A stretch of DNA of 64,000 nucleotides from Chloroflexota bacterium (GTDB lineage: Bacteria; Chloroflexota; Anaerolineae; Anaerolineales; Anaerolineaceae): the NCBI GenBank assembly GCA_016887485.1, contig CP069394.1, positions 1,612,001 through 1,676,000 on the forward strand, given 5' to 3'. Below are positions 14,159-59,716 of the stretch, in pieces. The notes below the pieces were generated by a model. That model was given only the letters and a program-made list of their open reading frames with translations, had not been told where the DNA came from and did no database searches. Position 1 is the stretch's first letter; the number at the start of each line of letters is the position of its first letter. The translations under genes and the position numbers were made by a program.

Positions 14159-14185
14159 ACTTGTAAATTGAAACATGCAACAGTT

Positions 14186-14277
14186 GAACGGGGAGCCTGA
14201 TTTTTCAGGCTGAGAGGAGGACATTCGGTCCTCGACCCGCAAGACCTGATCCGGATAATGCCGGCGGAGGGATAAGA
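14186..14277 (+). ncRNA. TPP riboswitch (THI element)
   Basis: The hallmark segments are present in order: GGGGAGCC, CAGGCTGAGAGG, the GACCC strand, ACCTGATCCGGATAATGCC and the closing GGAGGGA. The aptamer binds thiamine pyrophosphate. Downstream genes make TPP from thiamine and import thiamine-like compounds, so the ligand matches the operon. The aptamer is followed 15 bases later by a terminator hairpin, so the expected mode is transcription termination when TPP is abundant. Confidence 0.97.
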
Positions 14278-14291
14278 CTTGTTAACTAATC

Positions 14292-56761: not shown

Positions 56762-56807
56762 ATAGTTAAACGGGCTTAACTATATTCGCGTGGGCAACAA
56801 ATGTCAA
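56762..56807 (-). promoter_or_regulatory. marR promoter and operator
   Basis: TTGACA (56807-56802), 17 bp, TATAGT (56784-56779) on the minus strand. The perfect palindrome ATAGTTAA (56762-56769) / TTAACTAT (56776-56783) with a 6-bp centre overlaps the -10 and the transcription start, the usual location of MarR operators. Confidence 0.8.
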
Positions 56808-56891
56808 GCTGTTTTTAAGGGTGGAAAAGGTAATCAAATTGTAAAGAATTTCCGGGGAAAGTTCAGCTTGGACAAACAGTTAGGCAGCAGG

Positions 56892-57101
56892 TTAGTGGGA
56901 GGATGGATGCCGTTTTTGAACGCTGGGGCAGTGTTGGTCCGAGTAAGAACAGTAAACACAGCAATCCCCCGGTTTCGGTTTGAGCATAGCGCCACAACTG
57001 GGGCACACATAGATCGTTACTCAGTAGTTCCCGGGCATTTCCTCCTGGGTGACCGTGCCACACTGCTGACAGGTCAGATTGGCTTGGTATTGGATAGGCA
57101 T
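56892..57101 (-). CDS. zinc-ribbon GDCCVxC-type protein with in-frame TGA (candidate selenoprotein)
   Basis: Reading through one TGA at 57023-57021 gives 69 residues. Paired cysteines are Cys11/Cys14 and Cys33/Cys36, and the tail carries GDCCVYCSY at 45-53 and Cys58-Pro, the GDCCVxC family signature. In that family a conserved Cys follows the MPxxx segment five residues before the second CxxC region; here the TGA is at that place (MPGNY-TGA-VTIYVC). The frame is open and conserved on both sides. A hairpin GTGCC/GGCGC with GU in its loop lies 14 nt after the TGA, as bacterial SECIS elements do. RBS GAGG 5 nt before the ATG and a TATAAT upstream. The alternative is a nonsense-mutated gene. Confidence 0.72.
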
Positions 57102-57167
57102 AGGGGCCTCAATCTCTGGGTGGGCTTATTTTCATTATACAATTTCTGGGGGAAATAATTTATTCGG

Positions 57168-57200
57168 TTAAATACAAAGTGGGCGCGGAGAGACTCGAAC
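57168..57200 (-). repeat. displaced tRNA-Val 3' fragment (att-like)
   Basis: Identical over 33 bp to the 3' end of the intact tRNA-Val plus 12 bases of downstream flank. On the minus strand it reads GTTCGAGTCTCTCCGCGCCC. Without the 5' half it cannot make a tRNA. Confidence 0.8.
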
Positions 57201-57350
57201 CATCGACCTTATACCCCCTCGATTCCCTTCGGGGGTTCCAATTTTTTCAGGGGCTCGGATGTGACTAACTTTAGAGTCAAAATGCAAGCGGACTGTTTAG
57301 GGCAGGAACTCACAACGAAAATTATTCTGGTTTTTTTATCTTGGGGATTA

Positions 57351-57402
57351 TTAAATACAAAGTGGGCGCGAATGGACTCGAACCATCGACCTCACGGATG
57401 TT
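57351..57402 (-). repeat. second tRNA-Val-like 3' half fragment
   Basis: It shares the same flank, T-loop (GGTTCGAGTCC) and acceptor strand (CGCGCCCA) and extends back to the 3' side of the anticodon stem (CATCCGTGAGG). Its T-stem GATGG/CCATT pairs fully, unlike that of the intact tRNA. It may be the remnant of an earlier integration. Confidence 0.7.
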
Positions 57403-57502
57403 ACACAAACTCAGGACGGGGTATAATTCTAAATTAAGAAAAGATATGGTCAGTAAAGTTTAATCAATAGACCGATTTAATAATATATGATGGGGCAATA
57501 CT

Positions 57503-58732
57503 ATGAAAAAAGAATTCTCAGAATTTTATCAACCAACTGAAAAAGAGTTTGAAGAAATGTGGGATTCATGTGATTTCATATTTGATACAAATATTCTCTT
57601 AAATTTATACCGTTACTCTTTAGAGACAAGAAATACATTTATAACTATTATGGAACAAATTAATGATCGAATTTGGATTCCATATCAAGTAGGTTTCGAA
57701 TATCACAAAAATCGGATAGTTGAAATAGAAAAACTAAAACACACTTATGATAAAGTCAAAGAATCATTGACTGGTTTTCAACATAAGATCAAAGATGAAT
57801 TATTTACATCATGCAATAATGGAAGACATCCATATATCAATTATGAGGATTACCTTTCCAAAATCGAAACAATAATTAATGAGATTTCTATTGACCTAGA
57901 TGCAAAGAAAGAAAAACATCCAGATTTATTAAATAAGGATCCAATTAGAGATAAGTTAACTAAACTTTTTAATGGAAGAGTTTGTGATCAACTAGATCCT
58001 GAAGAGAAAAAAGAAATAATTACGCAAGGAGAAGATCGTTATAAGAAACTAATTCCCCCAGGATACAAGGATGATGGATTCGGCGATTTAATTATTTGGT
58101 TTGAAATGATTAATCATGCAAAAAAAAGCGAGAAGCCAATAATCTTTGTTACTGATGATGGAAAAGAAGACTGGTGGTATCAAATCCATGGGAAGACTAT
58201 AGGTCCAAGACCAGAATTAATAAAAGAAATTCTTGAGAAGGCTAATATCAAGTTTTATATGTATTCTGCTGACAAATTCCTGAATTTTGCAAAAGAATAT
58301 CTTGACAGTAAAGTAGAACCAAAAGAAATTGAAGAAGCTAGAGACATTCGTCTGCAAGAAGAAAATTTACAGATACAACGAAAGAACCAAGAGTTTTATC
58401 GTACTTTATTGTCGGCAAAAGATGTTTATGAAATGATGGAAAGGGCTAATCAAGCAGCTGTACCCAAATCCATGATCGAAATGATGGAAAGGGTTAATCA
58501 AGCAGCAGTACCCCAATCCATAATCGACATGATGGAAAGGGCTAACAGAACAGCAATACCCCAATCCATGATTGATATTTTGGAAAACGCTAAAAATTAT
58601 ACAATTCCCCAATCCGTCATCGATAGAATGGACTCCGCTAAAAGAGAATTTGATAATTATGTTCTTTCGAGACAAATAAATCCAATTAGAAACATAACTG
58701 ATAATAATGTGAGTAACAGGGAAGATAATTAG
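57503..58732 (+). CDS. PIN-like domain protein (PIN_8/DUF4935 type) with C-terminal repeats
   Basis: A 409-residue protein. The PIN-like fold (about 20-265) has FIFDTNILLNLYRYS with Asp28, WIPYQVGFEYHKNR near 58, PPGYKDDGFGDLIIW near 185 with Asp195, and PIIFVTDDGKEDWW near 212 with Asp218-219: the acidic set of a metal-dependent nuclease. A helical linker follows, then four 16-residue repeats at 311-374 (MMERANQAAVPKSMIE and variants). PIN_8 proteins are often found near defence genes. Its low GC and islet position suggest transfer. RBS GGGG-type, weak. Confidence 0.82.
   Translation: MKKEFSEFYQPTEKEFEEMWDSCDFIFDTNILLNLYRYSLETRNTFITIMEQINDRIWIPYQVGFEYHKNRIVEIEKLKHTYDKVKESLTGFQHKIKDELFTSCNNGRHPYINYEDYLSKIETIINEISIDLDAKKEKHPDLLNKDPIRDKLTKLFNGRVCDQLDPEEKKEIITQGEDRYKKLIPPGYKDDGFGDLIIWFEMINHAKKSEKPIIFVTDDGKEDWWYQIHGKTIGPRPELIKEILEKANIKFYMYSADKFLNFAKEYLDSKVEPKEIEEARDIRLQEENLQIQRKNQEFYRTLLSAKDVYEMMERANQAAVPKSMIEMMERVNQAAVPQSIIDMMERANRTAIPQSMIDILENAKNYTIPQSVIDRMDSAKREFDNYVLSRQINPIRNITDNNVSNREDN
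58433..58624 (+). repeat. four 48-bp in-frame tandem repeats in the PIN-like gene
   Basis: Four units of exactly 48 bp encode MMERANQAAVPKSMIE, MMERVNQAAVPQSIID, MMERANRTAIPQSMID and ILENAKNYTIPQSVID. The first three are close at the DNA level and the fourth has diverged. Confidence 0.9.
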
Positions 58733-58828
58733 AAAATAAGAAGCAATAATGGTAAATAAGCTACATTCATGGTGACGGAATAGAACCAGATTATGAAGAT
58801 AAGTTCTAAATATTATAAAACCTTGAAT

Positions 58829-59245
58829 CTATAAACGAGTTAAATAATCGCTAAAATCAATTCCCTGAAATTCAATCTCTGCAAGTAAACGTTTAGTTGC
58901 ATCTTCAACATGATTGGATGCAGTTTTATTCATATTCGTTATATCAATTAATAACTCCATGAATTCTTTCATTTGATCTGCCGAAATCTCATCTTCAGGT
59001 TGATTTGAAATCTTTTTCCCTAACTCCTGAAGCTTTATGTTCTTTTGAATATACTCGATATTAGCTTTTCGCTGCTCAGGTGATTGTGAACGCAAGAACG
59101 AAATTAAGGTTTGAACATCTTTTCCCCCAAATTCTTCACCAAAGAAAAACTCAACAGGTTTATTTAAATATTGACTTATCTTATATAAATCACTTGCCGT
59201 CACTTGACCCTTATCCCATTCCAAATATATTATCCCTGCTAATTG
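58829..59245 (-). pseudogene. XRE-family regulator, 5' truncated
   Basis: The open frame from 59245 reads QLAGIIYLEWDKGQVTASDLYKISQYLNKPVEFFFG. This is the end of a helix-turn-helix XRE domain, but the first two helices (about 35-40 residues) are missing. A stop codon lies directly upstream and the tRNA begins 60 bases on. A TTG at 59224 could start a 131-residue remainder. The C-terminal part is acidic and helical. It is convergent with the PIN-like gene and looks like the islet's damaged regulator. Confidence 0.7.
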
Positions 59246-59316
59246 TTATTAAATAAAACCAACTAAAAATATTTAAAATTTATTATAGCATTGCGTATGG
59301 GAAATTAAATACAAAG

Positions 59317-59390
<74 letters not shown>

Positions 59391-59716
59391 AATTTGGAAC
59401 TACCTTCTTGCGTTCTAACCAGCAGCCCTTGGCAGGGTCTGGGAAGTTACGCGCCCATTTCGGGACTTACATTTGCGCTCTAACCAGCAGCCCTTGACAG
59501 GGTCTGGGAAGTTACGCGCCCAATTCGGGACCTACATTTGCGTTCTAACCAGCAGCCCTTGGCAGGGTCTGGGAAGCTACGCGCCCAATTCGGGACTTAC
59601 ATTTGCGCTCTAACCAGCAGCCCTTGACAGGGTCTGGGAAGCTACGCGCCCAATTTGGAACTACCTTCTTGCACTCTAACCAGCAGCCCTTGGCAGGGTC
59701 TGGGAAGTTACGCGCC
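59391..59716 (-). repeat. five 65-bp tandem repeats derived from the tRNA-Val 5' half
   Basis: Five units (first 66 bp, others 65 bp) end at 59456, 59521, 59586, 59651 and 59716. On the minus strand each begins GGGCGCGTA like the tRNA, then has a 24-nt insertion containing CCCTG-N-CAAGGG in the D-arm, then CTGGTTAGA(A/G)CGCA as in the tRNA, then a unit-specific tail. Units alternate between two tail types (TCCAAATT-like and CCCGAATT-like). None can form a complete tRNA. Confidence 0.92.

Follow-up and report, generated by a model that had tools for sequence, protein, structure and literature searches.

An in-frame UGA in a 69-codon gene of an Anaerolineaceae genome almost certainly encodes selenocysteine. 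The gene lies on the minus strand of the window, by which we mean the whole 64,000-nt stretch of contig CP069394.1 that was analysed, in a genome of 2.9 Mb on two contigs (G000 in our numbering). With a probability of about 95%, it is a selenoprotein gene in which SelB and tRNA-Sec of the same genome, guided by a hairpin with a GUUG loop, insert selenocysteine at the UGA of codon 27. We infer the insertion itself; the support for it, computed directly, consists of the frame, the family, the selenium machinery, the Cys/Sec column, selection on the downstream codons and the family hairpin. The sequence-only reading of this DNA had proposed a candidate selenoprotein with its TGA at a conserved cysteine, a proposal that the machinery, the column and the family hairpin all support.

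In the mechanism that we propose, decoding would be directed by the small hairpin, starting 17 nt downstream of the UGA. The predicted product would be a 69-residue zinc-ribbon-like protein with CxxC at residues 11-14 and 33-36, and its reactive set would consist of Sec27, the CCxxC of GDCCVYC (C47, C48 and C51) and C58. It is probably cytosolic, with no signal peptide seen by eye.

The frame and its family

The frame proposed earlier was confirmed: on the minus strand it runs from ATG 57101 (57101-57099) to TAA 56892 (56894-56892), with a single internal TGA at 57023-57021 (Table 1). With the TGA read through, its product is MPIQYQANLTCQQCGTVTQEEMPGNY-U-VTIYVCPSCGAMLKPKPGDCCVYCSYSDQHCPSVQKRHPSSH. 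Among the NCBIfam profiles it matches NF041374, named "GDCCVxC domain-containing (seleno)protein". The match has an E value of 4e-23, covers the whole domain (profile positions 2-57 of 58) and, with 81.4 bits, exceeds the curated cut-off of 40. A match at this E value means that the frame is not a product of chance, and at 81.4 bits it agrees with the earlier claim that the sequence on both sides of the TGA, including GDCCVYC, fits one family. Pfam returned below-cut-off matches alone for the product, mostly to zinc ribbons. In alignments of 8 and 25 rows, C11, C14, C33, C36, C47, C48, C51, C58 and the GDCCVxC motif are invariant. A DNA pattern of ATNCC, TGA at the set codon, 17 codons and then G-x-C-C-x-x-C has a single match in the window and no match in 100 dinucleotide shuffles. 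As to the residue spacing given before, the TGA does stand six positions before the next cysteine (C33); its distance from M22, the Met of MPxxx, is five positions instead of six.

Table 1. Coordinates of the gene, its parts and the adjoining tRNA features in the window
Feature	Position	Strand	Basis
Predicted GDCCVxC (GOS_B) selenoprotein gene, 69 residues, TGA read as Sec	56892..57101	-	frame, family match and selection
In-frame TGA, codon 27; column is Cys in other members	57021..57023	-	alignment of relatives
GAGG, candidate ribosome-binding site, ends 5 nt before the ATG	57107..57110	-	read directly from sequence
Codons for the GDCCVYC signature, residues 45-51	56949..56969	-	frame and alignments
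SECIS-like hairpin, family register	56989..57004	-	family covariation
Remnant of a tRNA-Val 3' end, outside the gene and a short way upstream of it (setting)	57167..57218	.	
Second tRNA-Val 3'-end remnant (setting)	57350..57401	.	
Intact tRNA-Val (setting)	59316-59390	-	

The family has a history under another name. A 2026 review (PMC13188914) enters NF041374, in the text available from it, as "Hypothetical protein GOS_B" with one Sec. The corresponding excerpts of a 2008 study of the Global Ocean Sampling data (PMC2398784) describe GOS_B as a predicted selenoprotein family of 11 Sec and 125 Cys sequences, with a predicted SECIS element and no functional evidence. The GOS_B entry in the available part of PMC9312934 carries neither a domain nor a motif, and the available part of PMC12013277 makes no mention of the GDCCVxC/GOS_B family. 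A text search of the literature did not find the name GDCCVxC, and the string GDCCV led to papillomavirus work alone. NF041374 is already named a "(seleno)protein" and equals GOS_B in the literature, so the window gene does not found a new selenoprotein family but joins a known, predicted one, GOS_B, as a new member. The two share sequence family, size and signature, with Cys and Sec forms within one family; in these respects there are no essential differences, and they are equated through the review's listing of GOS_B under NF041374. To what is known of GOS_B the present analysis adds TGA genes from Chloroflexota, a hairpin that covaries, and the observation that Cys relatives occur in a mer setting. 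With its testable hairpin, the window gene is a well-supported addition to GOS_B, whose function is not reported in the available excerpts.

The gene is also an example of how selenoprotein genes can be lost from annotation, since its TGA splits a 69-codon frame. As had been pointed out, the pieces, of 26 and 42 codons, are within reach of a minimum-length filter, so a gene caller using one would drop the gene. Further, an antisense frame of 122 aa (56790-57158, plus strand) spans the whole gene, and comparable antisense frames lie over some of its relatives; gene callers could therefore choose the wrong strand.

Relatives and the TGA column

Genome-level sampling of the family covered Chloroflexota and the order of the window gene. 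Of 400 Chloroflexota genomes drawn evenly, 35 have a family match at E <= 0.001 (32 over the cut-off); of 400 drawn in the same way from the order, 25 have one (23 over the cut-off). In the latter draw, 16 over-cut-off genes in 15 genomes hold one TGA, their bearers including a genus mate (G663) and a family mate (G687) of the window genome. The family is patchy within the genus, where two of the 14 listed members carry it and the other 12 have no match.

Fifty-one members were analysed, 18 of TGA type (16 from the order, one, G142, from elsewhere in the phylum, and one IMG/VR contig) and 33 of Cys type. This set excludes the broken copy of G688 and the weak partial matches of G248, G143 and G342. 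It also excludes the cases that yielded no locus, namely G328, the Cys-type second copy of G142, and the two pieces of G385, of which one, at a contig end and below the cut-off, carries a TGA. The TGA falls on a single column, the Cys of MPxxxC, in all 18 TGA-type members, and the same column is TGC or TGT in all 33 Cys-type members. Consequently, the TGA column is Cys or TGA throughout the 51 relatives, as the earlier reading had anticipated, and a sense codon for any other residue occurs there in none of them. The TGA-type genes span eight genera, the window genus included, and one viral contig.

A tree computed with this column masked places the 18 TGA-type rows in one group of 21 rows together with three Cys-type rows. 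Two changes are needed on this tree, compared with a mean of 14.9 after shuffling, and none of 500 shuffles is as low. The TGA-type genes are thus clustered, with one or more origins, in a tree that is built from few columns and has an unsettled bootstrap (group support 82/70; a single change in just 3% of 200 bootstrap trees).

Among the 53 loci from the viral collection (IMG/VR), near-identical copies included, 52 are of Cys type and one is of TGA type; for four of them (L126, L128, L129 and L136) the column was read by eye from the proteins and is Cys in all. The TGA-type gene (L140:2983-3201, IMGVR_UViG_3300033067_001335; also L049:474-563) keeps the hairpin with 6 of 7 pairs. It sits near a minor tail protein between two integrase genes, judged by the reader to be of serine and tyrosine type, and is a candidate phage-borne selenoprotein gene. 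A tblastn search of named phages gave no match at E 1e-5, and among the papers listed by a literature search on selenoproteins and phage, no title concerned a selenoprotein encoded by a phage. Separately, L048:1780-1960, in a Klebsiella pneumoniae metagenome-assembled genome, holds an apparent frame-shifted Cys-type copy.

Selection on the codons after the TGA was assessed from pairwise differences. Between the window gene and that of a genus mate, pS is 0.77 and pN is 0.15 over the 37 codons after the TGA, while 0.86 of synonymous and 0.28 of nonsynonymous sites differ over the 18 codons before it. Nonsynonymous differences per site are fewer than synonymous ones on both sides of the TGA in 10 of 10 compared pairs, many of the synonymous values being saturated. 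The stretch downstream of the TGA evolves under purifying selection and is therefore most likely translated.

Selenium machinery in the genome

All four genes to which the sequence-only reading had tied its proposal, selA, selB, selC and selD, are present in the same genome. The tRNA-Sec scores 63.9 bits, and ARAGORN calls a tRNA-SeC with anticodon UCA at the same place; it identifies those further matches of the search that were checked as genes for tRNA-Ser, tRNA-Leu, tRNA-Tyr and tRNA-Cys. SelA scores 521.7 bits, SelB scores 366.2 bits (model positions 2-580 of 581), and SelD has two matches over the cut-off. One SelD copy, in the Cys form, follows an apparent cysteine-desulfurase domain (the reader's judgement), and the other has an in-frame TGA within LSSCAGUASK, which we take to be the usual active site of SelD; the pair lies at L013:1396-3624 (-) and L014:1390-2514 (-).

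Across the sampled genomes, SelA exceeds the cut-off in 17 of 17 with the TGA form (counting the broken copy of G688), in 27 of 34 other family-bearing genomes, among which G385 is counted despite its TGA fragment, and in all 6 tested genus mates that have no GDCCVxC gene. Several of the seven family-bearing genomes that lack a SelA match are incomplete. The presence of SelA thus separates TGA-form from Cys-form genomes weakly, and is a mild test.

A conserved hairpin downstream of the TGA

Bacterial SECIS elements are hairpins inside the coding region with G and U in the apical loop. The window hairpin resembles them in being intragenic, in the G and U of its apical loop, in the placement of that loop 22 nt after the UGA and in the presence of SelB in the genome; it differs in its short stem (5-7 pairs), in an internal mismatch and in the absence of a SECIS match in an Rfam search at this place. 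Its pairs are G57004-C56989, C57003-G56990, C57001-G56992, C57000-G56993 and A56999-U56994. The GUUG loop (56998-56995) is kept, the outermost pair is U x U, and the one C x C inside the stem is C57002 x C56991. A hairpin with GU in its loop had been described before, with its start put at 14 nt after the TGA, compared with 17 nt in the family register and 15 nt in the minimum-energy fold of the window copy.

Over the family, the hairpin distinguishes the two kinds of gene. The complete five-pair core is present in 15 of the 18 TGA genes and in none of the 33 Cys genes; the TGA genes short of it are the window copy, L038 and L064, the last with a mismatch in the core. The outlier G142 forms 2 of 7 pairs in the family register, yet another hairpin folds there. 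Nucleotides 23-26 after the TGA, the loop, read GUUG in 14 of the 18 TGA genes, GCUG in two, GGUG in one and ACUG in one. Compared with synonymous-codon shuffles, summed pairing reaches z = 7.63 in the TGA genes (107 pairs versus 78.7 ± 3.7, with a maximum of 92 among 2000 shuffles) and z = 0.53 in the Cys genes (123 versus 120.6). Taken individually, 6 of the 18 TGA genes alone fall below 5%, and the pairing of the window gene is reached by 34% of its own synonymous shuffles.

The TGA alignment also covaries. It has 12 double-change cells, compared with 3.5 in shuffles, and a covariation score of 0.355, compared with 0.199, each with 0 of 500 shuffles as high; the compensatory double changes include C-G/U-A and G-C/A-U. 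Paired cells make up 84.9% (0 of 500 shuffles as high), a percentage that, like the summed z, leans towards the register, as this was picked after the TGA genes had been inspected and several rows are near-copies; slid by -2 columns, the register still pairs 68.3% of cells. Of the five measures of covariation, the remaining two give a weak signal, namely the number of pairs with a double change (4 versus 2.5; 50 of 500 shuffles as high) and the number of pair types (11 versus 9.5; 83 of 500). RNAalifold recovers the five-pair core unaided from the TGA alignment. For the Cys alignment, 53.2% of cells are paired (17 of 500 shuffles as high) and the score is 0.209 (33 of 500). The window copy folded on its own is unremarkable (z = -0.99; 35 of 200 shuffles fold as well). 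Overall, a SECIS-like hairpin is conserved with covariation in the TGA-type relatives and not in the Cys-type ones, in line with the likeness to SECIS elements drawn earlier.

Alternative explanations of the TGA

A nonsense mutation could have turned the Cys codon of a decaying Cys-type gene into TGA, so that it now encodes a 26-residue fragment. Such a history would suit a gene that is patchy among genus mates, adjoins an apparent integration site and has a hairpin with one internal mismatch, and the broken copy of G688 exemplifies decay in genes of this kind. It is nevertheless very improbable, as 17 further genes have a TGA in the same column across those eight genera and the viral contig, the downstream codons are under purifying selection and the covarying hairpin is absent from the Cys genes; on the column, selection and hairpin evidence, the pseudogene reading was rejected. 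We consider it slightly less probable still that the UGA is translated as Trp or Cys, by near-cognate read-through or a suppressor. The residue at position 27 is predicted from sequence, which gives this account its opening, but UGA is a stop elsewhere in the window, the genome has the Sec machinery, and the downstream hairpin is conserved in TGA-type and not in Cys-type genes. A genome-wide reassignment of UGA was rejected as well, since TGA is the ordinary stop of 9 of the 27 stop-to-stop frames of at least 300 codons in the window. Decoding as selenocysteine is thus strongly preferred to either account.

Neighbours of relatives and possible function

Across 17 loci from 16 genomes, made up of the window and 16 further stretches of which some stop at a contig end, the TGA-type genes have no neighbour at a fixed place. 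Four clusters of neighbours reach at least three loci, none of them at a fixed place, and a conserved operon was rejected; the largest cluster consists of antisense frames over the GDCCVxC gene itself, mixed with other proteins. In G610 a DsrE-like gene follows the TGA-type gene, which itself faces an ArsR gene and one for a heavy-metal P-type ATPase.

The Cys form keeps different company. Annotated MerT, MerP or MerTP lies beside it in 6 of the 8 plasmid regions viewed, according to a plasmid gene table that is incomplete. These regions were hand-picked: four came out of the 60 best among 349 matched records, and the other four out of 14 records spread evenly over a set of 340. One of the remaining regions is an arsenic operon with no mer genes, and the other has neither annotated; a DsrE gene adjoins one plasmid member. 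In the viral collection, 17 of the 53 loci contain MerT/MerTP/MerP-like sequence near the family. So do 7 of the 51 Chloroflexota loci, which are about 3 kb long, one of these seven cases being the ATPase of G610; MerT proper was found in one of the 32 over-cut-off Chloroflexota genomes from the phylum draw. Unlike these mercury-uptake operons, the window gene has no mer neighbour and no linkage to merT or merP, and its genome has no MerT match. Literature on selenoproteins and mer gave nothing about the GDCCVxC family by title and abstract start.

The eight invariant cysteines and the Sec/Cys column suggest a zinc-ribbon scaffold with an extra thiol or selenol site near the CCxxC. The best match of a profile search against the PDB is 1qyp (E 0.0021), presumably a zinc ribbon. 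The AlphaFold2 model of the product is of moderate confidence (pLDDT 77.0, pTM 0.58) and Foldseek found no match to it at E <= 0.001, so the reading of scaffold and site is a guess from sequence.

By analogy with the Cys-type relatives, which sit beside mer transport genes, the protein may bind or relay a soft metal such as Hg(II). We hold this with much less confidence than the selenoprotein reading, and a role in redox chemistry or sulfur transfer is almost as likely. To this rival, a thiol protein for redox or sulfur trafficking with no tie to metals, we give somewhat below even odds (a figure that concerns the function question only and is not to be added to those of the other rivals). It would suit the DsrE-like gene after the TGA-type gene of G610, though that gene faces ArsR and the heavy-metal ATPase, as well as the DsrE gene of the plasmid member and the absence of MerT from 31 of the 32 family-bearing Chloroflexota genomes. 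It accounts poorly for the MerT/MerP-like genes beside the family in the plasmid regions and viral-collection loci, and soft-metal relay is preferred because of these mer neighbours. A fuller scheme is doubtful when taken as a whole: a cytosolic GDCCVxC/GOS_B protein would take Hg(II) from MerT-type transporters, Sec standing in for the key Cys in the Chloroflexota TGA genes would tighten the binding of mercury (or arsenic), the SECIS would be family-specific, and the gene would move singly, on tRNA-targeted islands and a temperate phage. The mer neighbours of the plasmid Cys-type relatives point to where GDCCVxC function can be tested.

Genomic setting

A gap of 65 nt separates the GDCCVxC gene from the nearest tRNA-Val remnant, and genes for a MarR regulator and two ABC transporter genes lie downstream of the GDCCVxC gene. 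The remnants and the intact tRNA-Val enclose a PIN-domain gene (57167-59390), and this region looks like the outcome of repeated integration at a tRNA, an apparent hot spot. From inside the 5' end of the tRNA-Val, tandem repeats of about 65 nt extend over the stretch searched (59379-59700), with at least five copies there. Elsewhere in the window, a TPP riboswitch is located at 14179-14289 on the plus strand (69.2 bits).
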